From Notolepis coatsorum (lineage: Eukaryota > Chordata > Actinopteri > Aulopiformes > Paralepididae): a stretch of 64,000 bases of DNA. Both the position numbers and the translations under genes were made by a program. The stretch spans positions 95,972,324 through 96,036,323 of the forward strand of contig OZ020589.1 in NCBI GenBank assembly GCA_963971535.1, written 5' to 3'. Positions within the stretch are counted from its first letter, which is position 1. Every line of letters begins with the position of its first letter. This document shows positions 9,823 through 60,649 of this stretch, piece after piece. The notes under the pieces are model-generated. The model ran no database searches and was not told the origin of the DNA. It saw only the letters and a program-made list of their open reading frames with translations.

Positions 9823-10000
9823 CGACGCAGCAGAGAGCATCACACCTGCTATTACCCACCTAATCAATCTCTCCATTGAGCATGGGAAGGTACCAGCAGA
9901 TCTAAAGAGTGCTAGAGTAATCCCACTCTATAAGAAAGGTAATAAGTCAGACAAGGGTAACTATAGACCAATTAGCATTTTAAGTATACTATCAAAAGTC

Positions 10001-11151: not shown

Positions 11152-11618
11152 TGTAACTGAGGGGTACAATTCCCTGACTGTATTACTAGATATGATACTT
11201 ACTACCACTACCTTTGTACTTAATATTCGGCCACCCAGTACACGGCATAAATATATTATCATAAACACTCTCACGTAGATGAAACGGATCCAACACAAAT
11301 GTACGAAGTCGAAGTATGCGTTTATTACTACACAGCAATGGTGTGTAGAGCAAGCACTTAATCACTTAATTACATTTATGAATTGAAATAGTATGCACTT
11401 TTATGGCAAAGAGTATTCGTCGGTATATCAATAGAGAATGTCCAATCTCTGATGGCGCAGGTGGTAAATATACGACCTGGAATAGTTAAGGAATAACAGC
11501 AATGATACTTTAATGATTATATACTAGATACACTAAGGGGGGGTTAATCCGGTCGCTTGTAAGCCGACAGGAGTAGGAGGGGGGGGGGGTAGAATCCGGC
11601 TGCCTCGTCCGGCCAAGG

Positions 11619-20354: not shown

Positions 20355-20617
20355 TTACTCATGCGATCCGGATATGGCGTGAAACACAAAAAAAAAATCC
20401 TAACCCACATAAATGGCACAATCATACTCCCTTATTCAATAACAATGCACTCTTAATTGAAAAACGACCTATAAGATTCCCTATATGGGAAGAGCAAGGC
20501 ATACACTCATTAGGGGATGTTTTTAACAAACAGGGTTTTTGTAGTTATAAAGAAATACGCAAAAAATGTAATCTCACCAAGTCCACATGGCTTTTTTACA
20601 TACAGTTACAGCTATGT

Positions 20618-23704: not shown

Positions 23705-23852
23705 TCATATGTTAATGAGTGGTTCATGGTCACGAGACGCCCGCCCATTCAAGTCTTCCTCTGTGGTTCCCTCAACTGCGCTTTTTTCTGTGTCCTTCTC
23801 CTTCTCCGGTCCTCCGCCACTTCCATCCCCGTGGTCAGGAGCAAAGTAGTAC
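23705..23852 (-). CDS. receptor last coding exon (cytoplasmic tail, stop)
   Basis: Acceptor ...CTCAG at 23853-23857. The exon reads [14 protein letters not shown], an acidic/charged stretch ([10 protein letters not shown]), then EEDLNGRAS and ends DHEPLINI before a TGA at 23705-23707. DHEPLI fits the acidic dileucine endocytosis/sorting motif [DE]xxxL[LI]. There is no ITIM or ITAM. The 148-bp length closes the frame from the previous exon exactly. Plus-strand TTTATT (minus-strand AATAAA) near 23335-23345 could serve as a polyadenylation signal. Confidence 0.85.
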
Positions 23853-26800
23853 CTGAGGATGACAAGGAAATTCGTACAATAATATTATTTTGATAAGATT
23901 AGAGCCTGGGAGAGAGAATCTTGAGTCTCTACTGTCTTGAGGGAGGGAGTTCCAGAGCCTGGGATAGAGACTCTGAGTCTCTAACGTCTTGAGGGAGTTC
24001 CAGAGCCTGGGATAGAGACTCTGAGTCTCTACTGTCTTAGAGTCTCTCTCCCAGGCTCTGGAACTCCCTTCCTCTCTCTACTGTCTGAGGGAGGGAGTTC
24101 AAGAGCCTGGGATCTGCCCTGCAGAAGGGATCAAACTCTTTCAGGATGTACGTGAATATAACTGTAATGTATTAATTTATATATGGTAAAATGTCTTAAT
24201 CCAGATTGAGCCTTTAACAAAGCATCTCAAAAGGAATATACCACAAGTGTCACGATCTAATAGTTGAAGCAAAGTAGTACCTGAGGATGATGAGGAATTC
24301 CTAAACGTTTGGAATATTTTCTCAAATGTCTTTACTGAATAATAATTATCAACCCCTTACACATGTCTTTCACTTAGTTTTCTCAGATTGCCTAAACTTA
24401 ATTTACATTCATTTATATGCATGCATGCAAGCAGTATCCTTGATCGCCTCAATGTTTTCTATCACTCTTAGGTTTGCTATAAATGCCCCCTTCTCAACAC
24501 ATCACTGTGACTTATACACATCTGTAAATTACACTCTCGATGAGAAATCCATTGGTTTACACTCACGTTTGTAAATTTTTTACAAAACCCTCCTTGGTCT
24601 GACCCCTCCTTATTTGATACACCTGTTAAAATTGTCATCTACTCCCTATAACACCAGAGCTGCTCACCATATCTCGCTAGATGTTCCCTGTGTTCAAGTT
24701 CAAGTTTCCTTTATTGCCACACAACCAGGTTGGTGGTATTCTTGATCGGTACAGGCCAGGGTGGATACATAATACAGTACAACATGACACAATAAATACA
24801 TAAATACAGCACAGCACAACACAGCACAACATAACACAGAAGAAACTAGTCCATCGGTCAGGAGCTTGGTTAGTGTGGGGGCGGAAGGGGGAGAGGGGGG
24901 CCAAGGGAGTTCAGGGTCCGAATGGCGGTGGGGAAGAAGCGGGTGGTTTTTAACACTTGTGTTAACACTTCCTTTGGTCATTTGCTGCTCCCAGCAGTTG
25001 GAATGAGATGCAAAATACTTTGAAAAAGGACAAATTGATTCCTGTCACTACTTTTAAAGACTCTTATCGCAGAGTTGTTTATACACACCTGCAACTGTCA
25101 CCCAGCCTTTTAACTGTAATCCGTCTGTTCTGCTTCATGTATTTCATACCTTGTAATTCTATTAGGATGTTTGCTTAATGTGCATTTAAATGATTTCCCG
25201 TATCTGTGTAATGTATGTATCGTCGGTCTCCTTTACATTTTCTTTGTCCCCTTTCCCTGTTACCCTTTGAGTGGCCCTTTTGTCCTCTCGCCAGGCCGTC
25301 ATTGTAAATAAGAATTTGTTCTTAATTGACCTGCCTGGTTAAATAAAGGTTAAATAAAAAAGTTATTTCCCATACCTGTCGTCGAGGACTCCATTGTTAG
25401 TATCCGTAGCGCCCCTTCCCACTACGTTATTAAACATGACCATGGCATCTGAAATGGCATCTGAAATGGCAGCTGAAATGTAAGAATCAGACAATTAATA
25501 GCATATTAGTCATAGCAGGCCAGCTGCAAATTTTTTTATTATAAAAATTCATCCGCAAGGAATGTAGATACAAACAAGCCCAAAGAGTATCTAATTGATA
25601 CGAATTAATAGATACTTATGAGGATATCTGTACTGTATGCGCTCGGCTTCTTAGGTATCATGTACTTTATATATAAATACATGGTTCCCAAAGTTTTAAG
25701 GCTCGACCCCCGAAATAACGTGTCAGAGAGGCTTGGAGGGAGGCTATATACAGTTTCACTAACATCCACAGCGGAGAATATGAAAGGAATCAGAGCCAAA
25801 CGAGCGAGAAAAAAAAAATCTAACCCCAACTAACCTTACTGTCATGCACTTGTCCTAATAAACTAACCTACACTGTAACACGCAACACTTTGATGAACAT
25901 TGTTACTCAGCTGATAGAGTTGTACCCTTCCTGATGACTTGTCGTACAGAACTTGTAAGCCGCTTTGGATAAAAGCGTCAGCTAAATGACTAAATATAAA
26001 TGTAAATGTAAATGATAGGTTTCATTCATTAAAAACATCCCAGCGGGATTCACATTTGCAATGCTGCGCGTTATTAAAATAACTACATAATGTGTATATC
26101 GCACCTTGCGAGCGCCGTATATATAACGTGCATTATTTAGGACAAAGTAAATTTATCAATTAGATACTCTTTGGGTTTGTTTGTATCTACTTATTCTGAA
26201 CGAGCTTAACTATAATGTGTATATCACACCTCGCGAGCGCCGTATATATAACGTGCATTATTTAGGACAAAGTACATTTAGTATCAGCATTTTAGGTCTA
26301 TTATTTTACATTTCAAAAGCCCCCTCTAGAAAAACGAAGCACAAAAACATAATTCAGAATGGTATAATGGAATCTAGACTGTGAGAATTATAGACAGAAA
26401 TGCATGCGTGCAGACACAGATTCCTTCCTTTATAGACCCGTTCGCTGTATACGTTAAGACTCAGTGTGTGCGTGTATCATGGGGGCAAAAAAGAACGTAA
26501 TCCTGGTCAGAACAACGGGGCAGACAAACAAGCCACAGTACAGCGACAGTCAGCCGGTTGTGTTTTTGTTGTGTTCTTCACAGGATTGAAATGTATTCTA
26601 CCAGAAAACTTATGTACATCATCTCTGTACATATTTACTCTCAAATCTTTGTTAGAAATGATTAAGTGACCCAAGACCTTTGTTGCATAATCACCCCCCC
26701 CCCCCTTCTCTCTCCCCCTGATTTCCTGTCACTCCCTGTCCCATCTAATGAGCAGGAATACCCTAACGAGGAAAATAGAGGTCACTTTAACCCTTTACTG

Positions 26801-29800
26801 GCCAAGTAACCATTTTTGGCCACTTCCCCATACAATATATTTAGCCAGGTGGGAGAGGGGGGATCTTTAATCTATGAAAAAAACTTTTTCCAGACAATCA
26901 GCACAGGTCAGGCTATGACACAGATATTGTCACCATCCCATCTGACCAATCAGGATAGACCCTGGGGATCTGCAACTTCCTTCTTTTCACCACATCAAAA
27001 AAATGCCAATTTTTGCACCCGCTCTTCAAAATCCATTATTTCCTCAACAAGTCATGGTGAGTTGATAACATTTACTAATTTTTGCAGTTGAACAATCATT
27101 GTAAAGGATGGGATAGGTGTTTTTTGCATAGGATTAGTGAAATCAGGATTTGTTCTTACTGTAGCTAAAAAGTGGTGAAGCCATAAACGGTCATATGCCC
27201 CTTCAGGTGAAGTGACAGTGTCCATTTTTTGACATATGCCTGATGCATCTAGTCAGTCACACTTAGGGTATTACTTCTACCATGTAGTACCCTGTAGTGC
27301 TGTAGTGCCATGTAGTACCCTGTATTGCCATGTAGTACCCTGTAGTACCATGTATTGCCATGTAGTACCCTGTATTGTCATGTTGAGAGAGTCAACAGCT
27401 TTAAGTACCTCGGAGCCTACATATCCGAGGACTTGACATGGACCACACACATTGACAGTGTTGTGAAGAAGGCACGACAATGCCTCTACTTCCTCAGGCG
27501 CCTAAGGAAGTTCCAAGTCAGTCAGAAGATCCTTAAGAACTTCTACTCATGTACAATAGAGAGCATCCTGACTGGCAACATCACCTCCTGGTTTGGGAAT
27601 AGCACTGCACAAGACCGAAGCAGACTACAAAGAGTGACACGTTCAGCCAAACGCACAATTGGAGGGGGGCTCCCCACCCTCCAGAACATTTACAACAAGC
27701 GGTGCAGGGGCAAGGCTAAGAGAATCATTAAAGACTCCAGTCACCCGAACAACTGCCTCTTTGAACTGCTGCGGTCAGGCAAGCGATACCGGAGTCTCAA
27801 GGCGAGCACAGAAAGACTCAGAAGAAGCTTCTATCCCCAGGCCATCAGGCTGCTCAACGAACAATGAACACTACACAACAACAACCATCAAACGCACATA
27901 ACACACACATCCACACGCACACACTCACTTTAAACAAACACACTGTAGCACCCACTCCCCACACTTTATAGCACACACTCACTTTAAACAAACACACTGT
28001 AGCACCCACTCCCCACACTTTATATTTATTGATGAAGGATTGCACTACAACTCGTACACCTTACTGTAAATTGTACCTAAATTGTACCTCATCCCATTTC
28101 TGCTTTGCACTATATAGTATTGTACATTAGTACACTGCATAGTATTGTATATTATATGGTAACTCAGTTACGTCTATTCTGCATCGAACATTGTACATAT
28201 GTCTATACTGAACACTGGGACCTCATTTTCTACTTCTAATTTACATGCTATACTATGTTATTTGATACTATCTTGTCTAGCACAGTCTCTGGAGCGTAAC
28301 AGTAAGAAGCATTTTGTATGAAAGTATTCTGTACTTCTGTATGACAACTATTAAAGAAACTTGAAACTAGTACCCTGTAGTGCCATGTAGTACCATGTAT
28401 TACCCTGTAGTACCATGTAGTACCATGTAGTATCATGTAGTACCATGTAGTTATATAGTTTTGTCCGCTATTCTTATTTGGGCCTTTATCGACTACTGTT
28501 GCCATGGCAACGCAAATTCAAGAAAACTCCCAATACATTTTCTTATTTATTTTATGTTATGAATCAGCCTGCCAAGTTTCATAGATATGCTCCCTAAGGA
28601 AAAATATGCCCCATAGCCCCCACATTTTTAGGGGTACCGGTCGAGGGCCTGTTTACGGATACTTTGGTTAACCTTAATTTACAGGGGGGAAATCTATTTT
28701 TATTTTTTTTTCATAATTGTAGATAACTTTTGAAATAGCACCAAAATAACATTCTAGAGTTGAAATTGTGAATTTCCAGGTATTTCAAGAAGTGACCGAT
28801 AAAGGAAAGAACTGATGTGGTTCTTGTATAGTATAGTTTAGAAATAGCATAAGGATATAGAGTAAAAACTGTATATTGTATAGTAGTGTACATAGGACCC
28901 AGTGCCTAATTCGTAGCTAACATTGTATTGCATTATCTCAGGACTTTAACATGTCTATTTTATCATGCCTATTTCATGTCTATTTTATTACCTGTTTATT
29001 ATGTCTATTTTATTATTTAGTATTATTGCACAATCAAAGCGGGCATGGCCACCCACATTTCACTGTATACCCTGGTATGTAAGTGACAAATAAACCTCTT
29101 GAATCTTGAAAAATACCTAACCCTTTAATGTTCACTCCAAGAAAACAACTATGTAAAAATTATTCTTTTGTATTTTTTATGTTATATATAGTAATAGCTT
29201 ACGCTCTGCTCGTAGTGGAACATATCCCATATCAGTCTAATACTGAATACATTTCTTCACATGTACACACCCATCCGCCTGGCCACACCCCCATCCGCTC
29301 CTCTACATAAGCGGGGATGTGGCCATACTAACAGCTCCTTCCCTATTTTCACCACCGACAAGTGTCTGTATACACCACTTGAGTTTAGTGCCGAAATAGT
29401 TGTTGGAAAGGAGCTACGTGGACATTGTATCTTATTTTTTCTCTCGCCAATTTACGAGAAAAGCTAAGTCATAATGTCTGCACCTTCGGGGGGTTCGAGC
29501 GCTCACAACGTCACCCTTCACCAGCGCTTCTCCATTGCCGTGTCCGCCGTGCGTCGTGGGGCTGCTCTGACTCCACGTTGTGGCAGTCAGATACGCCCGA
29601 GCAGTGCCCGGTGGTGAGTCAGCCTCTCCGAGGGGCCGTGGCTCGAGACTAACGATGTCCCGTCGTCCCGGGGACGATCAAATATTGATTTGGGACGAAC
29701 AGAAATCATTGCCGGGACACAAATGGGACGAAGAGGATTTTTTTTTTTTAACAGGAAATGTCAATTAGCCGACTGTCAGTGCGCGCACATATTGCTGTCA

Positions 29801-32800
29801 AACGGTGCGTGTCTCGTGCCGACTTAGTTGACAGAGAGACGGCAACATTATCATGTGGGGTTCACTGAAGTCTAAACGTTGCATGATTTGCCGAATCCAA
29901 TGACTATCTCCGCTGTCCCAACGCAGCGATACGCTAATCCAGCATCAAGCTCCCGCCCACCATTCTGATCAGCAAACCACAGGTCGCGCTGCAGCAGCCC
30001 CAAATTTATCTCGACATCGAAAAAGAAAGAGATTAAAAATGGCCAGGAACTGGTGATACTTACTGTGTGCGTGAACATAATCCCTTGGACATGAACTGAC
30101 GGTACGTTTTTATTGATATATCATTGGGATCCCCCTCCGAAATTGGTCAACACGTCACCATGCATTTTGGCCGGAGCTTAAAAAAGCACGGTGGACACGG
30201 TGGACACCTTACGTCTGTGTTTATAATGAATGAATGGTAAAACGGATTATATTGAAACATAGTGCGAGCACTCACAACAACTATTCACACAATTTAAAAC
30301 AGCCCATATTTATTATAGTTGACAGTCGCACGAGACCACTATACAAGAACCTTGAAAATATCAGAATGTTATAAAAATAAAAATAAACGTTATACTGGCA
30401 TCCTCTCAGTGAAGAGAGCACCGCAAATATGCTGCGCTATTTGAAGAGGATAAACACAGCAGAAGAAGATGGAGAACAGACACACACTGACCAACAGGGA
30501 ACTGCATCCAACAATACAACCCCTGACTCTAACGTAAGGACACATTTAAATAACAGAAGTGTAATGTTATCCACAACGCCCCAACCCTGGACACCTTCAA
30601 AACTGCTCTAAAAACACCAAGGCTTTTCCCCATCAGTTAGTTTAGATTAGATTAGGTCCATTATCCATTATCCCTAACCTTCCCTCATTCCCTTTTTCCC
30701 CCCTATTTCCCTAGCCCTATTTTTTGTCCTGATTGTGAAGCGACCTTGGGTTCTATGAAAGGCGCTATATAAATTTGATCTATTATTATTGGAACTGTAT
30801 ATAGTTATCGACACGTTCTAGTTATAGCTGCTTATTATCTTTGTGCTTACAATAATCAAAAGGTACGGTACACAGTAGGTCTCACCCTCTGTGCCATTAT
30901 CAGCACAAAATATGTCCCCATATGATCAAATTGACGTTGATAGATTATATATATAAAAGAAAATTGGGACGGTTTACATTCACTTTGGGACGGTTAAAAC
31001 TGTATTTCGGGGCTGGCTTTGGGGTTGTGCTGGAGCCGAACGAGAGTGCTCTTGCCCCGTCTCCGATGGAAACTGAGGATCACATGGAGGGGGCGAGAGC
31101 ACTCTTGTTTGATGAGCCAATGGATTCGTATCATTCTCCCCCTCGGGGTGTGGCAGGGAGTGTTGCGTCTCCTTGGGGTCCCTTGTTCTCCGGTGTTGGG
31201 TTAGAACCTCCGACCCCGAGACAAGATGCCCAGCTATCTGCCGCGTCGGATGATGGCGCCCGACATGGCAGCCTCCCGTACGTGAGGGACGCGAGTGACG
31301 TGGAGGGAGGTACGCAAGGGGAGTTGCTTGCCTTGTTCCCCGAGCTCATGGCGGCCGCCGCAGCCGCTATTGGCATGGCGTTGCTGCAGCCTCTGCCTGC
31401 ACCTGTCCCTGATGACATGATAGGTCATCTCTGGCAACGTCGTCCTGTGAGAGAGACAGGCGTTGTCTGCCCATTCTTCCCTTCAATGGAGGCCTACGTG
31501 AAACAGGGACAGGTAATCTCCCGCATCACTGGCCTTACCCCCGCCTACGTGCCAGTCACACGGGTGGTGGGTTTGGTCCAGGGACTAAAGGACAGGGTGC
31601 CTCGGCTTGATAGCCCGATGACATCCATACTTTGTCCCGAAGTGGTGTGGGAGCCGTTGCGGAAGCCGGTTCCCCAAGGGAAATTGGCTAGGCAGATGGC
31701 TAATTGGAGTGACCAGGCATACATCGCCGCGACTCAGAGCCTAGCTGCGACGTCTAACATCGCGCAGCTAGCGCGCTACATGTCAGGGATGATGGCGGGC
31801 CGGTCGGTATTGGATCACCACCATCAATATCTTCACGCCCAAGCGGCTGGAGCCATCCTGCACCTTACCCAGCTGCAGGCGATAGCCGCCGGGAAGGGGC
31901 GCGCCCTGGCCACTCTGTCCCAGCGCCACCTTTGGCTGGAGCAGGCGAGGGTGCCGGAACAGAAGAGGATTCCCCTGCTCACGGCCCCCCTCTCCGATGC
32001 TGGGCTGTTCGGGTCGGCCATGCAGCAGATGACGGCTGCCTGCAGAGAGATGGAGGAGGAGCGCTCTGTGCTCCAACCCCATTTCCCCCGACCCGATGCC
32101 ACCGGTGATGGCCGACGAAAGCAACGCCGGCAGAGGACCGCGACCGTTGCCTCCGCCACCACCGCCGCCGCTGCTGGGCCTTCGTCCAAGAAGGCCAGGA
32201 GTGGAGGGAGTGCCTCGTCCGCCGCAGCCAGCCGCACCACGCCCGGAGGTGACGGTAAGGATCGACGTGACCAGGCTCCCCAGAACAGTCCCTCCGGGCC
32301 GGCTCCCCGTGGGGGCAAGCACCGCTAGTGACTCTCCCCTGTTTACCCCTGTCCCTTTCCCCTCCGCGTGAATATTAAAGGCAACCAACTTGTGTTTGGC
32401 TTTTCTCTGATTGGCCGCGCCCCCCCGCCCCCACGCGCAGGCAAGCGCAGTCGTCCCACGTCCCAAATGAAATTCAAGGAGCGCAAGCGAGCGGCAGCGC
32501 GGGCAACCAACTTGTGTACCATGGGCTGCTGTTCCAACGCACTTGTGTTGGGCTGCTGTTTCACTCGTGTATAAACAAAGCCCATACAGTTATGAAACGC
32601 GCTGAACTAGAAAGCGTAACGTTATTATGTTTCGCGTTTTTAACAACCAACTACCAGATTCACTCGTGTATAAACAAAGCCCATACAGTTATGAAATGCG
32701 CTGAACTAGAAAGCGTAACGTTATTATGTTTCGCGTTCCATTGATTAACGCCATTACCTGCTGTGCTGTAGGAAGCAGAGGTACAGTAAGTTACAGTAGG

Positions 32801-38800: not shown

Positions 38801-41800
38801 CCTCCTGGTACACTGGCATCACAGTAGCACTGAAAGGTAGGCTCAGAACAAATTAGTTAGAATGATTTTAAAACTCCATCCCAGGACTCACCTTACACAG
38901 ACACATTTTAACAGCCTCAAATGGCTCAGGGTTGAGGAGAGGGTCTCTCAAATAAAACTCAACATAACACATAGGATACTCGGGAATACTGTCCCTCAGT
39001 ACCTCAGTGGATATTTTAACATGGTAAGGGATGTACACGGACACGCCACCAGGGGGAGCCCTACAGACATCGTCCCAGTGAGATGCAATAGGAAAATAGG
39101 CCAAAACGCATTCCTATATTCAGCAGCAGTACAATGGAATAGCCTACCAATGGAGTTGAAGACCATAAGCCCCTTCTCCACTTTTAAATTAGCTATAAAG
39201 AGGTGGATCATAAGTAGCAGAAGCTGGGAGTAGTGAACAAAGGGTTTTTAATATGTCATACATAATCAGTATAATAACACTATGAATGTAACATATTAAC
39301 ACATTGTCTGCCACGCAGTTTGCCCATCTTAAGGTGCTCCCATGGTCGAGCGGACTGTATGCGGACTGGACTCTGCGAGGTCTGCATGGACTCTTTGAGC
39401 TTTCATAGTCGAGCGTACCTCCGCGGAGGTACCAATTTCCTACATGTCTCGCGCCAGTTTACACAAAATATTTGACCCTTATAAAACATTTTTGTGTTGC
39501 ATCAAGTTACATAATTATGTTAAGTAATGTGTTAGATGATATAATATGTTGAAAAAACTAAGCTTAGCTTTGAAAATCCAGCCAAAATTGTTTCATGTCA
39601 GGAGAGATTTTTCAGCTTCTAACAGTGCATGTGAGCGGATCGGAGCGTGAGCGGCGCGGGGCGCGGAGCGGCCGGTTTTGACGTGAGCGAGGAGTGGGTT
39701 TTAAAATGAGTCGGCGCGACGTCCGGAGCGAGAGTTCTCCTCCGCTCCAATCCACTCCAGGCCGCTCACAGTGGTTTAACACTGATGTAATATATACATG
39801 CAGTACAATGCCAAAGCAACAGATGGCGATGTACAAACATGAAGGCCATTTTCAACCAATGAGAAGGGTGAACCTGTGATAGGCTGTTCGTTCAGGCTTT
39901 GTCACTGTAGAGACGCCCACACTCACTCCAGTTAGAAAAAGTATATCGACGCCATTGTTGTTGACGTTAGCTTACATGCTAACGTTAATGGCAGCGACCA
40001 TAGCATTGTGGCTCGGCTAGCCTATCATCGCTTAATAGAGATAGTGAATGGATAAACAACGTTATTTAACATTGCAGAATGGCTACAATTACAATGCGGC
40101 TCAATACAAACAATTGTTAAGGGGCCCAGGGGGTGTAGACTGTTGTAGTTTGAGCTCATTTACACCATGCTCCAAAAAAAGAAGAAAAAAAACTGCCGAG
40201 CGATCTGGCGCGGGGAGCGGGGAGCGCTCGATTCAAGGTGAGCGGGGAGCGAGCGGAGAGCGACTTGGGGGCGGGGTCAACATGAGTGATTAGCGGAGCG
40301 GACCAAGCTTTAAAGAGCGAAGAGCGGATTTCTCGGCCGCGCCGATCCGCTCACGTGGTCTGGTTTCTAACTTGCTGGTAGCACACTGAGTGAGAAGGCT
40401 ACTGTCAAAAAGCAGAGGGCCATCTAATGGATTTTTTTTGGCATAGCATACGTGAACCGAATGGTAGAGATGGCTCAGTTAAGTTTAACACATTTTTCAA
40501 TGAGAGATAGTGACAAAAAATTTGCTATTCCAAATGGTTGAGCAGACTATTAAAACCAGTGGTGGAAAGTAACTAAGTATTTTACTCAAGTACTGTACCT
40601 AAGTACAATTACGAGCTACTTGTACTGTACGCAAGTATTTTTATTTAGGGAACTTTATACTTTTACTCCACTACATTTCAAAGGAAATATTGTACTTTTT
40701 ACTCCACTACAATTATCTGACCCCATCCAGTTACTAATTACTTTGACGAAGAATATTTTGCATAGAAAACATGGGAAATGTATGAAGATTATATACTTTC
40801 ACATTTGAAGCCAGTCAACTTCAAGAGGACATAATCAGAGCAGCATAACTGGACCACATACCACTTTAATCAGAGCAGCATAACTAGACCACATACAGTA
40901 CCACTTTAACATAACCTATAGAGGTCAATGGATTGATGTTTGAATGCTCCCAAGCACTGGAATACACAAACATTATGTAGAATGCACACTTTTACTTTAG
41001 ATACTTAAGTACTTTCTTAAGTAGAATTTGAATGGAGGACTTTTACCAGAGTATTTCTACTTTTACTTAAATAAAAAGGAACTGTGTACTTCTTCCACCA
41101 CTGTTAAGAACCAGTGTAAATGTGTTACTCACGACCAATGAGTTGCCTTCTCCTCCAGACCAGGAAGCCGGCGGCCAGGACGAGCAGCAGGACGAACAGC
41201 CCGCCAAGAACTCCTCCGACGACCGACGCTGACGCTGTGTGGAAAGTAACTTTTTAAAGTATTTTTACTCAGCTACTTGTACTTTATGTGAGTATTTACA
41301 TTTTAGGGAACTTTATACTTATACACTACATTTCAAGGGAATTGTTGTACTTTTTAACTCCACTACATTTATCTGAACCCCTCGGTTACTAGTTGCTTTG
41401 AAGAAAAGGATTTTGCATAGAAAACACAATACAAAATAAAAAAAATGCATGAAGATTATATACTTAAGCATTACATCACGCGCAGGAGTGCTTTGTGAAA
41501 AATAAACCATGCCTAGGGGTGGTCGTTAGACCACCACGACTACAAGTGGTGTAATGCTTTTATACAACTGGCACATTCATCCAACCTTATTGCTATACAA
41601 TAAACACACATTAATCGAAGATTTATTGAAAAAACCATCCGCCAGAAAAAGTTGTTCCCACAACAACAAAAAAGAGAAGTTGCCTCCATGTGGAAGCAGC
41701 TCGGAAGTGCATCCAACTGTTCTCAGTAGGACATCCAACCAACTAACACATCCAACTGTCTTTCAACTAAGACATCCAACCAACTAACACATCCAACTGT

Positions 41801-44800: not shown

Positions 44801-47800
44801 ATAAGCGCGATTTTTATTTTGTTCCACAATGACTCATGACCGATCAATTACATCATCCAACATTGTTTAAGCAACTAAGACATTCGCCGTGACAGAATCG
44901 GTTTATATTTAGTCGTTATGACGCTATCAACATATCCATTTGTTGAATCCATCGTGATGCTATCAGCTTTTTAGCTGCTGTGAGACGAAAATTCTGATAA
45001 TTGCAGAGTCACTTCTTCCCAGAATATCTTAACAGGTGGGCAATCCCAATACATAAATGTACCCTCATCACCATTTGTACATAAGGAGCATAGAGAATCT
45101 TGTCTAAGTCCCATTCTGTTCAATCTTATAGGAGTCAGGTATGTCCTATGAATATAATTAAGATTAATTTGTTGATGATCCGGGTTGCGTGACGCAATTC
45201 GAACGTTTGCCCAGACTTCTTGCCAATCAAAATCTACTTCCAGGTCTGGTATATCCCTCCTCCAGACTGAGTCTAGGGGAAGGATTCCATACGAAGACGT
45301 TAGTAAGTGATGATAAAAGTCAGATACAAAGCCTCTCGATGTCTCTTTCATAGAAGAATGTGATATCTGTGGTGCTCAATTGGTATCTTTAATGAGACTC
45401 CATGAGCCTTCAAATAACTGTGCGTAGAAATAATATGTGGAACTGGTGAGGTTAAATTTGTTACGTACATCTTGATAGCTACAAAAACCCTGTTTGTTGA
45501 AAACATCTCCCAATGTATGTATGCCCTGCTTTTCCCATTTGGGGTATCTGATAGGTCATCTTCCAATAAGGAGTGCATTGTTATTGAATAGGGGAGTATG
45601 GCTATGCCATTTATGTTGGTTAGAATATTTTTTCTGTGTTTCACGCCATATCCGAATCACATGTGTAATAAGAGGGCCAAATTTCTATTTGCATTGCTTA
45701 ATTGATAATATGGTGTATGCTATGTCCTGCAGTCTATGTGGTGCTACTATATTTTCTTCTAAGTTTCTCCAAGATACAGATGCTTGGGAGTCAAACCAGG
45801 TTGTCAGTGGTCTTAAAGAGTACGCTTTAAAATAGTGGTAAAAATCTGGAAATGCTAAACCTCCATCGGCTTTGTTTCTCTGTGCGGTGGATCTTTTTAT
45901 TCATGGAGGTTTGTTATTCCAAATACATTTATATGCTGTGGAATGTAATTTTTTCCAGTAACCATCAGGAGGGGGTAACGGTAACATTGAGCTAATGAAG
46001 TTGATTCTAAGTAAAACATCCATCTTAACTATTGATACTCTGGCCTGTACTGAGCTTTTAAGTTTGGACCATCTGTCAAAGTCGTATTTGATCTTATCTT
46101 GGAATTTTGTGTAATTGTACTTAACCGTTTGGCATACAGTAGGGAATATTTCAACTCCTAGACATCTGAAGTGTTTTACCATTGGTATTTTTTCTGGAAG
46201 GAATATATTCTTTGCAGGGGCATTAAGTGGTAGGAAGGCCGACTTTGGCCAATTTATCCTAAATCCCGATAGATTGCCAAAATCATCAATCAACTTGAGA
46301 AGATGAGGCATTGAGGTGGTAGGGTTTTGCATGAACAATATTACGTCGTCCGCATATAAACTAATATGATGTTGTGTGCCCTTAATTGCGATTGGTTCTA
46401 TGGATTGGGATTGTCTTATATACTGTGCTAAAGGCTCTAATGATAAAGCGAATAGTCCGGGACTAAGAGGGCAACCCTGTCTGGAGGAGTGCGATACAGG
46501 AAAGATTTCTGAGGTGATTTTACCTGTTGTAATCATGGCCGATGGGTCTTTGTATAATACTTTTATCATATCAATGACTCCGTTTCCTAACCCCATCCTT
46601 TCTACTGCCCATAAATAAGACCATTCCAACCTATCAAAGGCTTTCATCGCATCCAAGGACAGCATCGCTATAGGTGGAGTGGCATCCTTGCTGGCATCTA
46701 ACAGTTGCAGTAACAGTCTTATATTATCCGTGATCAAACGGCCTCTTATGAAGCCAGTCTGATCAGGATGAACTAAAGATGTCATATGCTTTTGAAGTCT
46801 GATGGCTAATACCTTGGAATACAGCTTGATATCGGTTCCGAGGAGGCTCAAGGGTCTATAACTACCGCAATCGGTGGGGTCTTTGTCTTTTTTAAGGAGG
46901 ACTGTTATGAGTGCAATATTGTCTATCTTGTGGAAATTCCCCTCCTTGATTGAGTATAAAATCATATTAAGTAATAGGGGTCCAATTACATCCCAGCATG
47001 AGAGGTACAATTCTGGAGGGATCCCATCCCCAGACTTGGCCTTATTCAGTTTAAGGTCCTTCACAGAGTCCATTATAGTAAAGCCAGATTGGCTAAAATA
47101 TATCCCAATGTGACAGACAACTGTAACAGATGTGCACAGTCACCAGGGGATCTAACCCACATGTTCTGGTCCTGCTCGAAACTGATAACATTCTGGAAGT
47201 TCTTTTTTGATACCATTTCGGAGGTACTGGAGATTACTATATTGCCCTGCCCCCAAATTGCTATCTTTGGGATCCCCGAGGAGGATGTGATCTTGACCAA
47301 AAAACAATACAATGTAGTGTCCTTTGCCTCACTGATTGCCCGCAGGAGGATACTCTTGCATTGGAAAGCATAACCTCCCCCATCATCCAGATTATGGCTG
47401 AATGATGTGATGTCATTCCTAAAACTGGAAAAAAATTTAATTTACAATTCGAGGATCCGCTGATAATTCTACACACATTGGCAACCGTTAATCTCATATG
47501 TAGATAGAATAGATCCGTTACCTCCTGACTGAAGTTATGTTGAGTGCCATGTAGGGGAGGTGCAATTTTCACTGAGTAGGCTTACCTGTTGATTGGGGTT
47601 GTTGGGGACAGTGGGCGTGTATTTATTTAATCTCCCACCTCACGTATTTAGGGTCATACGACCTGGCTTGTGTATCGGACCTGGAGTTGCACTTATGTTT
47701 CATTATATCCATATCAAATAGACTTATCCTTTAAGAGTACCATATGCTGTTAAAGTGGATCCTAATTTCACATTTTGCATTTGTCTTATTTTATTTTGTA

Positions 47801-59722: not shown

Positions 59723-59753
<31 letters not shown>

Positions 59754-60649
59754 CCGCACAGTGCAATACTCCAATTCAGCCATTGGCAATTCAGCCATTG
59801 GGTGGGTGGCGCTGCTGAGCGGGCCTGTGACGGTCTCGTGACCCAAATTCCTGAGGGGCCTGACAGCGTGGGGACTGAGAGTGCTGGGCTGACATTCTGC
59901 AGATGGATACTATTGAGGTAGGGAGGAACTTAGTCACGTGACTCAGTTGGTATTGCTGATTGGCTCAAACATGGTATGTTTGTATACAGCAAACAGGCAT
60001 TCATTCCTCTGTCTTTGCCCGTCTTGGGGCCAGCTTAGAATTAGAAGAGCTTGTCTAATAGGTGATTGCTCACCCCACTGTGTGTGTGCATGCGTGTATG
60101 TGTTTTCAATGTTAAACTATTGTGCAACCTTATACACTGTACTTGATAAACAACTTATTTGGAACTTACCCTTGTGTTTGCTATGTTATTGAAATTATGT
60201 TTTCAAGTTGCAGGAAATTACAGAAAATGTATTTCTTTATTGCAATTTATTTTGCCTCCCGGGCGGCGGGGGGCACAGCCCCCCTCAGGACCATCATCTA
60301 GTTGCGATTCAGCAACCTTGTTGGAAGATCCTGGGGAAAGCCTTCTTACCTGAACAACTGACGGTAGCCTCTCCAACACCAGCCCGGAATTGTCTCCAGA
60401 TAAGTGAACACTCTGCGATCGAGCGCTCCGGACCGCGACATATGGCGGTGTACCCTGGTCCCCCGCTGCCCTGAGCGGAGCCAGACGGTGTCTGGGCAGT
60501 GACAGCATCTCCGCAGTCCATCTCTCTGCACACCACTGTAGCTTCAGCTGGACCCCAGTTCTGTTGATACACTGGGGACCAGTGGTCGCTCTTATAGACC
60601 TGCACTCTGCCGGAGCACTGGTTGGCCCCACCAATCAATCTGAGATTGC
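23705..60649 (-). CDS. SRCR/Ig type I membrane receptor gene (nine exons, 5' end not seen)
   Basis: A host gene read right to left. Exons: SRCR 60350-60649, 54778-55074, 54151-54462, 52640-52948; Ig-like 50782-51066, 49695-50027; transmembrane 41133-41234; cytoplasmic 25376-25472 and 23705-23852. All introns have GT-AG ends. All domain exons are phase 1-1, and the last junction (25376 to 23852) is phase 2. Lengths sum to 2183 bp, a whole frame of 726 residues plus stop. One exon per SRCR domain with 8 cysteines is the group B pattern of CD5, CD6, CD163 and DMBT1. By family it would bind microbial or endogenous polyanions or cell-surface ligands. The four SRCR plus two Ig layout matches no mammalian receptor I can name, so I give no symbol. 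A signal peptide is not seen and must lie upstream. Confidence 0.85.
23900..24120. repeat. minisatellite with an inverted member
   Basis: Several copies of a unit with 'gagttccagagcctgggata' and 'gactctgagtctct'. One copy (about 24040-24075) is inverted, giving a short hairpin-capable stretch. Lies in the last intron. Confidence 0.75.
24560..25370 (+). mobile_element. LINE 3' fragment, split by another fragment
   Basis: Coding remnants ([12 protein letters not shown]-like near 24590-24640, [12 protein letters not shown] near 24980-25010) and a 3' end 'gacctgcctggttaaataaa' with a repeated 'ggttaaataaa' mark a decayed Jockey-superfamily LINE. Reading frames are lost. At about 24697-24955 a minus-strand piece of a different LINE tail ('caagttcaagtttccttta') interrupts it. 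Confidence 0.65.
25376..25472 (-). CDS. receptor juxtamembrane cytoplasmic exon
   Basis: Acceptor TTTCAG then a short in-frame direct repeat (AISDAISDA), then [18 protein letters not shown] and VLDD. The donor is AG|GTATGG at 25375-25376. Starting in phase 1 it completes the codon left by the transmembrane exon, and it ends in phase 2, completed by 23852. A second AG acceptor within the repeat would drop four residues and stay in frame, so alternative 3' splice use is possible. Confidence 0.8.
25618..25833 (+). CDS. unrecognised small membrane-protein ORF
   Basis: The start [22 protein letters not shown] is a single hydrophobic segment like a signal anchor; a polar region follows, then a very basic end (AKRARKKKS). 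Such a layout is common in small viral membrane proteins, but nothing diagnostic is visible. The 3' edge runs into the L2-tail insertion. It lies in an intron of the receptor gene on the opposite strand. Confidence 0.3.
   Translation: MRISVLYALGFLGIMYFIYKYMVPKVLRLDPRNNVSERLGGRLYTVSLTSTAENMKGIRAKRARKKKSNPN
25826..26012 (+). repeat. L2 LINE 3'-tail copy
   Basis: Matches the tail of the LINE at 2154-5065 in the opposite orientation, ending in ATGTAAATGTAAATG. Inserted inside the inverted-repeat-bounded unit. Confidence 0.85.
26086..26276 (+). repeat. 64-bp direct repeat pair with TATA-like sequence
   Basis: Copies at 26086-26149 and 26213-26276 share 'cgagcgccgtatatataacg' and 'tgcattatttaggacaaag' with few differences. 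The TATATATAA box and paired arrangement could be promoter-like; no transcript evidence is available. Confidence 0.55.
26430..26525 (+). repeat. dispersed repeat, copy 1
   Basis: Shares 'aacgtaatcctggtcagaac' and flanking text with 55103-55200. Identity unknown. Confidence 0.7.
26526..27280. other. no gene seen
   Basis: Contains a C-run at about 26692-26704. No supported ORF. Short 'ccctttactggccaagtaac' text is the only landmark. Confidence 0.4.
27380..27867 (+). CDS. LINE ORF2 C-terminal region
   Basis: Begins [19 protein letters not shown], the thumb region after the RT catalytic block. It continues [29 protein letters not shown] and ends [24 protein letters not shown]. No palm domain or endonuclease is present. 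The frame is clean throughout, so the copy is young, but it lacks catalytic parts. Confidence 0.8.
27380..28367 (+). mobile_element. 5'-truncated LINE with intact C-terminal coding end
   Basis: Coding part 27380-27867, then a 3' UTR with a duplicated 'ctttaaacaaacacactgta' block (about 27927-28020) and a 3' end 'aaagaaacttgaaac' at 28367. Inserted in the minisatellite. Clade uncertain (I/Nimb- or CR1-like). Confidence 0.8.
28451..29175. other. gene-free; LINE tail fragment near its end
   Basis: No ORF supported. About 28970-29106 resembles a LINE 3' end ('tgacaaataaacctcttgaa' before an A-rich run). The rest is AT-rich. Confidence 0.45.
29176..29345 (+). repeat. left inverted terminal repeat of the DIRS-like element
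   Basis: Contains 'gctctgctcgtagtggaaca' and 'cataagcggggatgtggcca', both found in inverted form at 38515-38640. Confidence 0.88.
30618..30790 (+). repeat. SINE/LINE 3' tail inside the DIRS-like element
   Basis: Ends in 'aaaggcgctatataaatttg', followed by ATT repeats, a common fish retroposon 3' end. The head was not identified. Confidence 0.55.
30922..32328 (+). CDS. DIRS-type gag-like protein ORF (up to 468 aa)
   Basis: The likely genuine start is the Met at 31069 ([11 protein letters not shown]), since upstream codons lie in AT-rich non-coding sequence. The first ~110 residues are acidic and proline-rich. The middle is helical and hydrophobic ([56 protein letters not shown]) and contains [19 protein letters not shown] and [16 protein letters not shown], close in style to DIRS1 gag-like proteins, the source of the vertebrate LAP2-alpha domain. 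The last ~90 residues are very basic and Ala/Ser/Gly-rich. Family assignment is from motif style, not a search. Confidence 0.7.
   Translation: MIKLTLIDYIYKRKLGRFTFTLGRLKLYFGAGFGVVLEPNESALAPSPMETEDHMEGARALLFDEPMDSYHSPPRGVAGSVASPWGPLFSGVGLEPPTPRQDAQLSAASDDGARHGSLPYVRDASDVEGGTQGELLALFPELMAAAAAAIGMALLQPLPAPVPDDMIGHLWQRRPVRETGVVCPFFPSMEAYVKQGQVISRITGLTPAYVPVTRVVGLVQGLKDRVPRLDSPMTSILCPEVVWEPLRKPVPQGKLARQMANWSDQAYIAATQSLAATSNIAQLARYMSGMMAGRSVLDHHHQYLHAQAAGAILHLTQLQAIAAGKGRALATLSQRHLWLEQARVPEQKRIPLLTAPLSDAGLFGSAMQQMTAACREMEEERSVLQPHFPRPDATGDGRRKQRRQRTATVASATTAAAAGPSSKKARSGGSASSAAASRTTPGGDGKDRRDQAPQNSPSGPAPRGGKHR
32366..33771. mobile_element. Mutator-like (9-bp TSD) non-autonomous element, 1406 bp
   Basis: Terminal inverted repeats of about 30 bp start GCGTGAATATTAAAGGCAAC on the left and end with its inverse at 33771. 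The flanking 9-bp duplication TTCCCCTCC (32357-32365 and 33772-33780) is perfect; 9 bp is typical of Mutator-like elements. The interior holds two direct duplications (about 32559-32636 with 32660-32740, and about 32755-32876 with 32931-33053) and a long hairpin. There is no transposase. It lies just after the DIRS-like gag stop. Confidence 0.88.
33280..33457. repeat. long near-perfect hairpin (~80-bp arms)
   Basis: Arms at about 33280-33363 and 33378-33457 pair almost completely around a ~14-nt loop (ttatcaatgacttc), with a small bulge around the 'gcggcgc' in the left arm. It lies within the Mutator-like element. Confidence 0.85.
33781..34904. other. non-coding part of the DIRS-like element
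   Basis: An AATAAA at about 33799 could end the gag transcript. The rest shows short T-rich tracts and a '(TA)n' patch near 33952. No recognisable protein domain in any frame. Confidence 0.45.
34905..36680. mobile_element. foldback element, copy 1
   Basis: Outer arms at about 34930-35040 and 36545-36660 are inverted ('ttttaccaaacggttcgtg', 'tctgattggcca', 'gacatgtgcgcccaatcg'). Internal hairpins: 35078-35096 with 35139-35157, 35818-35870 (TACTTTCTATAGAA arms) and 36368-36427 with 36439-36495. A 38-39-bp minisatellite (unit with 'gttggatgtgttagttggtt') lies at 36000-36230. No ORF of note. A second copy lies at 41462-44945. Confidence 0.7.
36000..36230 (+). repeat. minisatellite, ~39-bp unit
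   Basis: About six units around 'agttggatgtgttagttggt', varying by small indels. The inverted array at 41720-41885 belongs to foldback copy 2. Confidence 0.85.
36681..38340. other. GC-rich non-coding part of the DIRS-like element
   Basis: Several open frames exist on both strands because of the GC-rich composition, but none shows an RT, RNase H, recombinase or other known motif. I regard them as shadows rather than genes. Confidence 0.5.
38352..38442 (+). repeat. internal complementary region of the DIRS-like element
   Basis: The first half is complementary to the extreme left end (about 29176-29222) and the second half to the extreme right end (about 38612-38654), joined head to tail. In DIRS elements this region templates the ends during circle formation. 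Confidence 0.8.
38515..38654 (+). repeat. right inverted terminal repeat of the DIRS-like element
   Basis: Inverted relative to 29209-29345, then ends 'cgctatactcatataacta' at the outer edge. A LINE fragment follows directly. Confidence 0.85.
38668..38856 (+). CDS. LINE ORF2 fragment, first frame
   Basis: Reads [18 protein letters not shown], then [21 protein letters not shown], matching the post-RT region of the LINE at 10001-11151 (KMLAGALVQSHFDYAATSWF). Ends by a frameshift; the protein continues at 38862. Confidence 0.7.
   Translation: MAQKVVTKINQRIKFLSRVSTYINRSAMEVLAGALIQCHYDYACSSWYTGITVALKGRLRTN
38862..39233 (+). CDS. LINE ORF2 C-terminus, second frame
   Basis: Reads [55 protein letters not shown] and a proper end SSRSWE. 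It is related to, but clearly a different family from, the split LINE at 9556-13790. Confidence 0.75.
   Translation: MILKLHPRTHLTQTHFNSLKWLRVEERVSQIKLNITHRILGNTVPQYLSGYFNMVRDVHGHATRGSPTDIVPVRCNRKIGQNAFLYSAAVQWNSLPMELKTISPFSTFKLAIKRWIISSRSWE
39301..39630. other. no gene seen
   Basis: Contains short inverted text ('gtcgagcg.. ..tccgcggaggtacc') but no convincing element boundary. Confidence 0.35.
39631..40354. mobile_element. GC-edged miniature inverted-repeat element
   Basis: The left end GTGAGCGGATCGGAGCG and the right end CGCCGATCCGCTCAC are inverted. GAGCGG-rich subrepeats flank a more ordinary interior. No target duplication could be fixed. No transposase. Confidence 0.65.
40557..41103. 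mobile_element. hAT-type miniature element, copy 2
   Basis: Same termini (CAGTGGTGGAAAGTAAC ... TTCCACCACTG) and body as 21973-22490. Flanks resemble a decayed 8-bp duplication (TTAA.AAC). It lies just downstream, in the gene's direction, of the transmembrane exon. Confidence 0.88.
41133..41234 (-). CDS. receptor transmembrane exon
   Basis: Acceptor TTTCCACACAG and donor GTGAGT (41127-41132). It reads [12 protein letters not shown], then a strongly hydrophobic run [15 protein letters not shown], then the stop-transfer RRRQLIG, giving a type I membrane anchor. It is 102 bp, phase 1 at both ends, and joins Ig2 upstream and the 25472 exon downstream in frame. It is wedged between two hAT miniature elements. 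Confidence 0.88.
41237..41461. mobile_element. hAT-type miniature element, copy 3 (truncated)
   Basis: Matches the first half of 21973-22490 ('gtggaaagtaac', 'ctacttgtactttatgtgag', 'aaaggattttgcatagaaaa'). It starts right at the splice acceptor of the transmembrane exon and is cut at about 41461 by the foldback repeat. Confidence 0.85.
42226..42831. other. no gene seen
   Basis: AT-rich sequence between the foldback repeat and the LTR, with a (TA)n patch near 42698-42712. Confidence 0.4.
42832..44124 (+). mobile_element. LTR-retroelement fossil, solo LTR, 1293 bp
   Basis: Begins TGTTGTGAAGGGCCAGATTA and ends CCTCAGTTACA, with a 5-bp target duplication GTAAC (42827-42831 and 44125-44129). 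A TATA-like box lies near 43102-43110 and an AATAAA near 43963-43969, the usual order for an LTR promoter and polyadenylation signal. Same family as 11152-13351 but in the opposite orientation. No internal coding region flanks it, so it is a solo LTR. Termini are well kept, suggesting a moderate age. Confidence 0.88.
44130..44644. other. no gene seen
   Basis: Sequence between the LTR and the right part of foldback copy 2. No supported ORF or repeat. Confidence 0.4.
44971..45644 (-). pseudogene. L1/Tx1-type ORF2 C-terminal remnants
   Basis: Two frames, 45348-45644 (ending near [10 protein letters not shown]) and 44971-45351 ([58 protein letters not shown]). They correspond to 20400-21000 of the full copy, so one frameshift separates them. 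The CxxC cysteine motif is kept but a few residues before the last Cys are missing. Confidence 0.8.
45901..47073 (-). CDS. L1/Tx1-type reverse transcriptase fragment (390 aa)
   Basis: RT blocks: [81 protein letters not shown] and [10 protein letters not shown] with both catalytic aspartates. Compared with the copy at 17577-20354 it keeps YADD but lacks endonuclease, linker and C-terminus in this frame. It reads on through [15 protein letters not shown] and ends IWNNKPP. Confidence 0.88.
   Translation of the reverse strand: MDSVKDLKLNKAKSGDGIPPELYLSCWDVIGPLLLNMILYSIKEGNFHKIDNIALITVLLKKDKDPTDCGSYRPLSLLGTDIKLYSKVLAIRLQKHMTSLVHPDQTGFIRGRLITDNIRLLLQLLDASKDATPPIAMLSLDAMKAFDRLEWSYLWAVERMGLGNGVIDMIKVLYKDPSAMITTGKITSEIFPVSHSSRQGCPLSPGLFALSLEPLAQYIRQSQSIEPIAIKGTQHHISLYADDVILFMQNPTTSMPHLLKLIDDFGNLSGFRINWPKSAFLPLNAPAKNIFLPEKIPMVKHFRCLGVEIFPTVCQTVKYNYTKFQDKIKYDFDRWSKLKSSVQARVSIVKMDVLLRINFISSMLPLPPPDGYWKKLHSTAYKCIWNNKPP
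47075..47961 (+). mobile_element. L1-type LINE, second family, 3' end with poly(A)
   Basis: Coding part at 47089-47373 ([49 protein letters not shown]) is the cysteine-knuckle region of a different L1 family. The 3' UTR ends in a run of A at 47948-47961. It meets the minus-strand L1 fragment head to head near 47074. Confidence 0.82.
48067..48110. repeat. poly(C) tract
   Basis: About 40 bp of nearly pure C, flanked by ACCCC-type text. Similar C runs lie at 56163-56182, 59670-59692 and 62949-62967. Confidence 0.9.
48190..48430 (+). repeat. LINE/SINE 3' tail with (AATC)n
   Basis: Contains 'gaattgaaaatgggggaccc', 'ctgcatccccttaacaattg' and ends in 'aatcaatcaatcag'. The best-preserved stand-alone copy of the family at 8620-8770, 59246-59545, 60768-60930 and 35871-35965. 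Confidence 0.8.
48431..48879. other. no gene seen
   Basis: Short open frames here are not supported by any motif. No repeat boundary found. Confidence 0.35.
48880..48922. repeat. terminal fragment of a hAT-type element
   Basis: Ends GCCTATTGCCGACCCCTG, a typical hAT terminus, preceded by 'ggcccgcgggcc'. The opposite end was not found nearby. Confidence 0.5.
49240..49675 (+). repeat. decayed LINE 3' fragment
   Basis: Resembles the C-terminal and 3' UTR part of a Jockey-superfamily LINE, ending 'gagtttaaataaaggtttga'. Frames are lost. It abuts the Ig2 exon at 49695. Confidence 0.5.
49695..50027 (-). CDS. receptor Ig-like domain 2 exon
   Basis: Acceptor TTCCTCAG, donor G|GTAAGATCC, 333 bp, phase 1-1. 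It reads [47 protein letters not shown] and GEYSCVYSI. The first Cys (ITC) and the YSC Cys form the expected Ig disulfide; two further cysteines (THC, GVC) could form an extra one. The core tryptophan is absent, as in some fish Fc-receptor/LITR-type domains. It is the membrane-proximal domain. Confidence 0.8.
50028..50781. other. intron without genes
   Basis: The intron between the two Ig exons. It contains 'aagtacagtacaacgaaaataag' and 'acagtaaagtgc' text that recurs around 53040-53130, so both introns hold a related retroposon tail. No exon candidates. Confidence 0.5.
50782..51066 (-). CDS. receptor Ig-like domain 1 exon
   Basis: Acceptor CACTGTAG, donor G|GTGAATGG, 285 bp, phase 1-1. It reads [60 protein letters not shown]. 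The Ig cysteines are in FTC and YNC, with the usual KGxYxC end. The F.GGTF.L pattern replaces the core Trp, as in fish Fc-receptor-like domains. It lies between SRCR domain 4 and Ig domain 2. Confidence 0.8.
51295..51664. mobile_element. hAT-type miniature element rich in TATCGG
   Basis: Ends TAGGGATGTCCGATATT and CAATATCGAGCATCCCTA are inverted, with a perfect 8-bp duplication ATAATAAA (51287-51294 and 51665-51672). Subterminal 'tatcggtatcggttgatatc' repeats could be transposase-binding sites. No ORF. A short LINE-tail piece is inserted near 51410-51480. Confidence 0.92.
51673..52162 (-). repeat. tRNA-derived SINE, ~490 bp
   Basis: Read from 52162 on the minus strand: CCGGCAGCGTGGCTACATGA with an A-box-like TGGCTACATGAG, a B-box-like GGTTTGAGCCC, a long unrelated body and a 3' end 'gcgctatataaatgtaatg'. 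The tRNA-like head and pol III boxes define it as a SINE. Confidence 0.82.
52163..52639. other. intron without genes
   Basis: AT-rich intron sequence with a TTTATATATATTTA-type patch near 52445-52470. No exon or repeat assigned. Confidence 0.4.
52640..52948 (-). CDS. receptor SRCR domain 4 exon
   Basis: Acceptor after a T-run (TTTTAG), donor G|GTAAGAGG, 309 bp, phase 1-1. It reads [69 protein letters not shown] and GEDAGVVC. All eight group B cysteines are present. It is the closest of the four to the family consensus. Confidence 0.92.
53233..53498 (+). repeat. minisatellite, 38-bp unit, seven copies
   Basis: Seven consecutive, almost identical units beginning 'agttctggcctggtgcttag'. Lies in the intron between SRCR exons 3 and 4. 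Confidence 0.97.
53635..53770 (+). repeat. minisatellite, ~36-bp unit, four copies
   Basis: Units with 'cagttactacgctctggggc' and 'tggttccaacacgaat', slightly diverged. Confidence 0.9.
54151..54462 (-). CDS. receptor SRCR domain 3 exon
   Basis: Acceptor TTGACAG, donor G|GTAAAACAG, 312 bp, phase 1-1. It reads [71 protein letters not shown] and [13 protein letters not shown]. Eight group B cysteines are present. The loop between C4 and C5 is glycine-rich. Confidence 0.92.
54463..54777. other. intron without genes
   Basis: The 315-bp intron between SRCR exons 2 and 3. Unique sequence, no repeat recognised. Confidence 0.6.
54778..55074 (-). CDS. receptor SRCR domain 2 exon
   Basis: Acceptor TTCCCAG, donor G|GTAAGATTGG, 297 bp, phase 1-1. 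It reads [80 protein letters not shown]. Eight group B cysteines are present. The spacer between C6 and C7 is glycine-rich and contains an NQT glycosylation sequon. Confidence 0.92.
55103..55200 (+). repeat. dispersed repeat, copy 2
   Basis: Shares 'gaacgtaatcctggtcagaa' and its left neighbourhood ('gacctgttcgctgtata') with 26430-26525. Confidence 0.7.
55584..57757. mobile_element. TTAA-edged repeat, possibly piggyBac-like
   Basis: Starts near TTAACCCATTCTTCGCC (55609) and has an inverse GGCGAAGAATGGGTTTTAA at 56554-56573. A further TTAA edge follows the two palindromes at 57750-57753. A C-run lies at 56163-56182. Parts of 57000-57610 recur inverted at 62500-63140. Subunit boundaries are uncertain and no transposase is seen. 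Confidence 0.45.
57675..57733. repeat. two perfect 16-bp palindromes in tandem
   Basis: CCCGAGATATCTCGGG at 57675-57690 and again at 57718-57733, each followed by TCTGGC. Spacing is 43 bp. Located at the inner right edge of the TTAA-edged repeat. Confidence 0.95.
57758..58762. other. no gene seen
   Basis: AT-rich sequence between the TTAA-edged repeat and the 35-bp duplicate. No element recognised; small ORFs are not supported. Confidence 0.4.
59082..59905. repeat. large inverted repeat (~0.4-kb arms)
   Basis: Arms at about 59082-59460 and 59480-59905 are inverted: 'cagcccagcactctcagtcc' near 59095 reappears reversed near 59870, and the 'ggcgctgctgagcgggcc' block pairs likewise. Each arm also carries the (AATC)n-tailed retroposon end. 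A C-run (59670-59692) and unpaired sequence interrupt the right arm. Confidence 0.85.
60350..60649 (-). CDS. receptor SRCR domain 1 exon (most 5' exon seen)
   Basis: Acceptor CTCCTATAG, donor G|GTAAGAAGG, 300 bp, phase 1-1. It reads [65 protein letters not shown] and EATVSC. Only six cysteines are present. C2 (expected in WGTVC) is a tyrosine and C7 is absent from the FRAGVGEA stretch; these two normally form one disulfide, so that bridge has been lost as a pair. C1, C3, C4, C5, C6 and C8 are kept. The phase 1 acceptor shows that at least one more exon lies upstream. Confidence 0.9.

Follow-up and report, generated by a model that had tools for sequence, protein, structure and literature searches.

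Each SRCR domain of the group B family is encoded by a single exon with phase 1 borders, and within the domain cysteines C2 and C7 are disulphide partners. Group B proteins differ in what accompanies these domains. DMBT1 is secreted and carries CUB/ZP domains, and the tail of CD163 carries a YREM-like motif, one of the family's tail motifs. In FCRLS, Ig domains come before SRCR. CD5L, by the title of one paper (PMC11525585), reportedly recognises polymeric IgM. Databases include predicted teleost proteins with both kinds of domain, SRCR and Ig. To our knowledge CD5, CD6 and CD163 have no Ig domains; as far as these three proteins go, the contrast with mammals drawn in an initial annotation of the locus described here stands.

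CD163 takes up haemoglobin-haptoglobin, as stated in the available portions of PMC2906472. FCRLS is an Ig-like/SRCR-B chimera that occurs across the major placental mammal groups. According to the accessible parts of PMC7940838, it is devoid of a transmembrane (TM) segment, contains one SRCR-B exon and a 21-bp second leader exon, and its origin is attributed there to a recombination event between an FCRL gene and CD5L; the chimera also appears in the available text of PMC4016189. Because FCRLS joins Ig and SRCR-B domains, the contrast with mammals was too strong as worded and needs this exception. In the open-licence literature, covered by titles and the beginnings of abstracts, we found no description of a fish receptor combining an SRCR array, Ig domains and a TM segment. 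A survey of SRCR genes in invertebrates (PMC10855680) likewise contains, in its available portion, nothing on this layout.

Exon chain in the window and beyond its right edge

The window is the whole 64,000-nucleotide stretch of DNA analysed here (C13:95972324-96036323 of a 3.42-Gb assembly). Sequence was also examined for 50 kb past its right end and 30 kb past its left end, and positions past the right edge are given in window-extended numbering. The initial annotation had described nine minus-strand exons running from 60649 to 23705, with GT-AG borders, matching phases and a total of 2183 bp ending at the stop. All of this was reproduced by translation and a check of every border. The joined frame encodes 726 amino acids with one terminal stop; acceptors were AG in 9/9 exons and donors GT in 8/8. 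Exons 1-7 are phase 1-1, exon 8 leads from phase 1 to phase 2, and the last exon begins in phase 2.

Pfam identified SRCR domains (PF00530) in all four of the SRCR exons in the window, which are numbered here by their place in the full array. These are S6, the SRCR1 of the initial annotation and sixth of nine (60649-60350; E 7e-17; AG/GTAAGA borders), S7 (55074-54778; E 1.6e-25), S8 (54462-54151; E 7e-24) and the membrane-proximal S9 (52948-52640; E 1.4e-33), the last three with eight cysteines each. Ig1 (51066-50782) matched PF00047 above the cut-off (E 4e-8). For Ig2 (50027-49695) no Pfam match reached the family cut-off, the best being PF13895 at E 0.011, and by profile the Ig call is weak. 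The TM exon (41234-41133) encodes a hydrophobic stretch without a charged residue followed by WRRR. Two cytoplasmic exons complete the chain: exon 8 (25472-25376; 97 bp) and the last exon (23852-23705), which carries the stop after a C-terminus of RDHEPLINI.

Splice sites were scored with a splice matrix for eight of the nine exons, exon 8 being left out. The SRCR and Ig exons scored at the 90th to 99.8th percentile of same-strand AG or GT sites in the window. The weakest scores belonged to the TM exon (acceptor 80th, donor 93rd percentile), which is flanked by long introns of 8.5 kb before and 15.7 kb after. On both sides of this exon, at 41235-41700 and 40700-41132, lie interspersed repeats that occur several times in the window and at the other loci examined. 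They reach to within about 36 bp upstream and about 30 bp downstream of the exon; their proximity may be the cause of its weak scores. Across the exon 8 acceptor runs a short repeated unit (25440-25480, minus strand) that gives three in-frame AG dinucleotides 12 bp apart, whereas the copy on C8 described below has one. We conclude that the window very probably contains the back half of a real SRCR-plus-Ig cell-surface receptor gene of the animal type.

The remainder of the window includes LINE-type retrotransposon frames, among which reverse transcriptase, endonuclease and a weak zf-RVT match were recognised. They lie on the minus strand at 2376-4190 and 4024-5067, on the plus strand at 9809-11275, 17574-20351 and 20336-21337, and on the minus strand at 45904-47139, inside the receptor's Ig2-to-TM intron. 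An ORF in a receptor intron (27346-27864, plus strand) matched the ALKBH8 N-terminal domain (E 2.8e-15). Among the matches listed, the surrounding stretch shared 97-99% identity with segments of C21 and C32, so the ORF is probably part of a dispersed element. An open frame of 490 amino acids at 30856-32325 (plus strand) gave no Pfam match at E 0.01.

Five further full SRCR exons were found on the minus strand beyond the window's right edge, bringing the array to nine. From the window outwards these are S5 (65585-65265), S4 (66446-66153), S3 (73522-73208), S2 (86823-86524) and the outermost S1 (88220-87906). A genome search with PF00530, in which 150 of 677 candidates were scored, listed S1, S3, S5 and S9; S2 and S4 were called SRCR by local profile and alignment only. 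The order given in the initial annotation, an SRCR array followed by two Ig-type domains, a TM segment and a tail, is borne out by paralogues in the same genome, while its count of four SRCR domains gives way to nine, the array having been cut by the window edge. A broken SRCR remnant followed by a stop lies between S3 and S4 (69272-69373 window-extended; C13:96041595-96041696, minus strand) and is probably what is left of a domain that the array has lost.

Upstream of S1 we found a 30-bp exon (92343-92314) with a 27-bp counterpart in the C8:78 Mb gene; this shared exon may be a second leader exon. The initial annotation includes no signal-peptide exon, and two scans for one gave no convincing candidate common to the window and C8:78 Mb genes, and a candidate at 78078839-78078767 was seen in the C8 gene alone.

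Two further copies in the same genome

A second gene lies at C8:78.007-78.077 Mb. On one strand it contains, in the same order and phase, nine SRCR exons matching the nine of the window gene (9:9), Ig1, Ig2, a TM exon and two tail exons. Both genes consist of 14 exons in one frame with 14/14 AG acceptors and 13/13 GT donors, and in each the SRCR domains occupy one whole exon apiece with phase 1 borders (9/9 and 9/9). The upper coordinates of S1 to S5 on C8 are 78076341, 78074014, 78069688, 78059924 and 78053985. The partners of S6 and S7 are at 78052062-78051757 and 78051676-78051368, followed by those of S8 (78021494-78021180; 78% DNA identity), S9 (78019217-78018909; 81% DNA), Ig1 (78018782-78018489) and Ig2 (78016673-78016341; 55% amino acid identity). 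The TM exon has a collinear partner at 78009547-78009440 (78% DNA), exon 8 at 78008823-78008742, and the last exon, with its stop present, at upper coordinate 78008034 (67% DNA, 44% amino acid identity). The DNA comparison between loci used the best 25 matches per stretch, and for the exons of lowest certainty collinear alignment to the C8 gene gave E-values of 7e-14 (TM exon), 1.5e-9 (exon 8) and 4e-11 (last exon). The presence of the same chain in the C8 gene ruled out chance or a misread frame. The reading of the TM exon and exon 8 as random open stretches is likewise ruled out: both align in collinear order with the C8 gene, and both occur again in the third copy.

Amino acid identity between the two genes ranges from 44% in the last exon to 80% in S3. 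Pairwise dN/dS over the 14 exons (Nei-Gojobori) was 0.34, a value that does not tell which copy is constrained and that was computed before the S2 and S8 borders were shifted by a few bases to their correct places. By class it was 0.31 for SRCR, 0.54 for Ig and 0.33 for TM plus tail, and by exon 0.74 for Ig2 and 0.31 for the last exon. In a tree of 25 SRCR domains each of S1 to S8 paired the window copy with the C8 copy with strong support, and S9 formed a group, also strongly supported, of the window, C8:78 Mb and third-copy domains. From this pairing we conclude that the array had its nine domains before the duplication took place. The longer branch belonged to the window copy in eight of the nine SRCR pairs, with S3 about equal (0.15 versus 0.14); thus the window copy evolves faster than the C8:78 Mb copy.

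Eight cysteines are present in 7/9 SRCR domains of the window gene and 8/9 of the C8:78 Mb gene. Six cysteines, without C2 and C7, were found in S4 of the window copy and in S6 of both copies; in S2 of both copies and S4 of the C8 copy the seventh cysteine lies outside the common column. The S2, S4 and S6 domains of both genes group with one domain from C32 (support 94/96, short of the starred level), and in this group of seven rows four have six cysteines, namely window S4, window S6, C8 S6 and the C32 domain. Because C2 and C7 are lost as a pair, these domains are taken to be modified and not broken. In a search against solved structures S9 retrieved CD163 first, then PIT54, CD5L, CD6 and DMBT1, and the joined ectodomain also retrieved CD163 first. 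Bovine CD163A, as described in the accessible portions of PMC2906472, also departs from the eight-cysteine pattern.

The genome contains three loci matching Ig1 (8/8 candidates scored) and six matching Ig2 (17/17 candidates scored), and the 3' order of SRCR, Ig1, Ig2, TM and two tail exons was found three times. The third occurrence, at C8:3.17-3.20 Mb, consists of an Ig1 exon (C8:3195552-3195860) adjoining an S9-like SRCR, Ig2 (C8:3182030-3182290), a TM exon (C8:3176531-3176653), exon 8 (C8:3174941-3175027) and a last exon (C8:3174077-3174250). A single SRCR exon was seen. That this locus is a mere fragment, with no Ig2 or TM within 9.5 kb, was ruled out when Ig2, the TM exon and the tail exons were found later. 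The Ig2 frame is broken near the domain's second cysteine, and for this reason the copy is probably decaying. Its TM and tail exons match the C8:78 Mb protein at 90-93%, as high as that copy's own exons do in the same search; with so close a relation to the C8:78 Mb gene, it does not count as independent evidence.

SRCR clusters on C21 and C32 were considered as further copies; over the 50 kb and 30 kb examined, respectively, neither showed an Ig match. An Ig2-like match on C32 (97511939-97512256, plus strand) is 66 kb from the SRCR cluster there and on the opposite strand. On the plus strand of C44 an SRCR match (64704340-64704633) is followed 10 kb downstream by an Ig2-like match (64714314-64714565). 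The C44 and C32 matches are possible members of a more distant set of SRCR-Ig genes. Long arrays of similar SRCR exons, seen with 150 of 677 candidates scored, are present at C6:112.50-112.52 Mb, C6:145.27-145.32 Mb and C13:35.24-35.25 Mb, and constitute a large SRCR expansion.

Ig pair, tail and proposed function

The joined Ig1-Ig2 sequence retrieved LILRB1, PIR-B and CHIR-AB1 first among solved structures (E 1.7e-6 to 4.7e-6). An Ig1 profile found PIR-B (1.9e-9) and CEACAM (2.7e-7), then an unnamed Ig protein and CHIR-AB1. Ig2 alone gave CD276, antibody light chains and Fc-gamma-RII as its best matches at E 0.04-0.43, none firm. By these comparisons Ig1 appears to resemble the LILR/PIR/CHIR receptors, and CEACAM is not far behind.

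The tail, measured from the arginines that follow the helix, has 88 residues in the window gene, and that of the C8:78 Mb gene has 87; in both, the hydrophobic TM stretch is uncharged. A pattern scan of these two full tails found no ITIM, ITAM, NPxY or YxxPhi match and one [DE]xxxL[LI] match per tail, at the C-terminus. The C-termini read RDHEPLINI in the window gene and FEHEPLIHS in both the C8:78 Mb gene and the third copy, so that [DE]xxxLI is present in 3/3. We take this ending to be an acidic dileucine-type motif, like that of the LIMP-2 tail. In a last exon that is otherwise poorly conserved (44%), the motif stands out. As the second and third copies are near-identical here, they amount to a single observation. 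The comparison is then in effect one of two sequences, and the apparently kept motif is a lead and not a test. An acidic dileucine-type tail end, one short motif, suggests endocytosis.

The initial annotation had read the layout as that of a putative fish-specific immune receptor, taking its role from the family. We consider it probable that the gene encodes a large type I receptor with a CD163-like array of nine SRCR domains at its outer end, a membrane-proximal Ig pair, a TM helix and an 88-residue tail, and that it serves endocytic uptake, as family and motif would indicate. The SRCR array would bind polyanionic, microbial or damage-associated ligands, and the Ig pair would hold the array off the membrane or bind a second protein partner. 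Most likely, bound cargo would then be taken up by a clathrin-mediated route and delivered to late endosomes or lysosomes, with the receptor relying on this rather than on tyrosine signalling of its own. Uptake is preferred to tyrosine signalling because the protein has no ITIM or ITAM, no charged helix residue for adaptor pairing, and a C-terminal [DE]xxxLI. A bolder reading, that these genes represent a new vertebrate family in which a nine-SRCR CD163-like array is combined with an Ig pair of LILR/FcR type and a lysosomal sorting tail like that of LIMP-2, the array binding pattern-type ligands and the Ig pair binding, for example, antibody or MHC, with both carried to lysosomes, strikes us as distinctly improbable.

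The gene could be shorter than proposed. If the five upstream SRCR exons were a separate tandem gene, the four-SRCR receptor would be complete, and its leader would lie between 60.65 and 65.27 kb. With 150 of 677 candidates scored, SRCR exons do cluster at many places in this genome, and a receptor with few SRCR domains would resemble the small group B members. Against a separate gene, the C8 gene keeps the nine-domain order 9:9, the shared 30/27-bp leader-like exon sits upstream of S1, and no local Ig-profile match was found among the five upstream exons. A further, weak point is that no signal-peptide candidate passed the filters in 60650-65265, where the same filters found none convincing anywhere. 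On balance a tandem arrangement is very unlikely. The intact nine-SRCR gene might instead be losing its function, with the C8:78 Mb copy alone a working gene. The repeat-flanked TM exon with its weak splice scores would fit such decay, as would the loss of two cysteines from window S4 relative to the C8 copy, the longer window branch in 8/9 SRCR pairs (S3 being about equal) and the already broken Ig2 frame of the third copy. All 14 exons of the window gene are nevertheless open and in frame with every border kept, pairwise dN/dS is well under 1, and the cysteines lost from S4 are the disulphide partners C2 and C7, a paired loss. Decay of the window copy is therefore quite unlikely.

A different role is also conceivable for a functional receptor, namely that of a WC1-type co-receptor that signals on gamma-delta T cells or on other lymphocytes, and not a scavenger. 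In cattle WC1 acts in gamma-delta T cells (available portions of PMC2906472). The accessible text of PMC9276791 describes an Atlantic cod T-cell sub-cluster, with putative gamma-delta receptor transcripts, that expresses an m130-like group B SRCR gene, so the present receptor may be expressed in lymphoid cells. The absence of ITIM, ITAM and YxxPhi patterns from both full tails makes a WC1-type role unlikely, and we retain endocytic uptake by a nine-SRCR receptor as the preferred reading.

Comparison with known SRCR and Ig receptors

The match of nine SRCR domains to nine in two diverged copies suggests that array order and domain number can persist for a long time. DMBT1-type proteins share SRCR repeats with this receptor, and long SRCR arrays are found elsewhere in this genome; the receptor differs in having Ig domains, a TM segment and a tail. 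The LILR/PIR-B/CHIR/NKp46 receptors appear similar in Ig1; no ITIM, ITAM or charged TM residue is present here. With the CD163/WC1 family the receptor shares the group B SRCR array and the TM segment with a cytoplasmic tail, and CD163 is its nearest solved structure; an uptake function is plausible. In contrast to CD163, the tail has no YREM-like motif (no YxxPhi match) and ends in [DE]xxxLI. In contrast to both CD163 and WC1, in which SRCR domains and short linkers make up the extracellular part, two Ig-type domains, the Ig2 call being weak, separate the array from the membrane in all three copies. The number of SRCR domains, nine, is that of bovine CD163A, in which the TM exon is followed by one tail exon where the present gene has two (available portions of PMC2906472).

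Should related species prove to share the layout, it would provide another vertebrate group B SRCR/Ig fusion besides mammalian FCRLS, and a natural case for asking if the SRCR modules and the Ig modules of one uptake receptor engage separate ligands. FCRLS and the present receptor have in common that Ig-like and type B SRCR domains occur in one protein (accessible parts of PMC7940838). They differ in that nine SRCR domains are here followed by two Ig domains and a TM helix, and in that the candidate leader exon here measures 30 or 27 bp. Relative to FCRLS, what is new in this fusion is the many SRCR domains and a membrane anchor.
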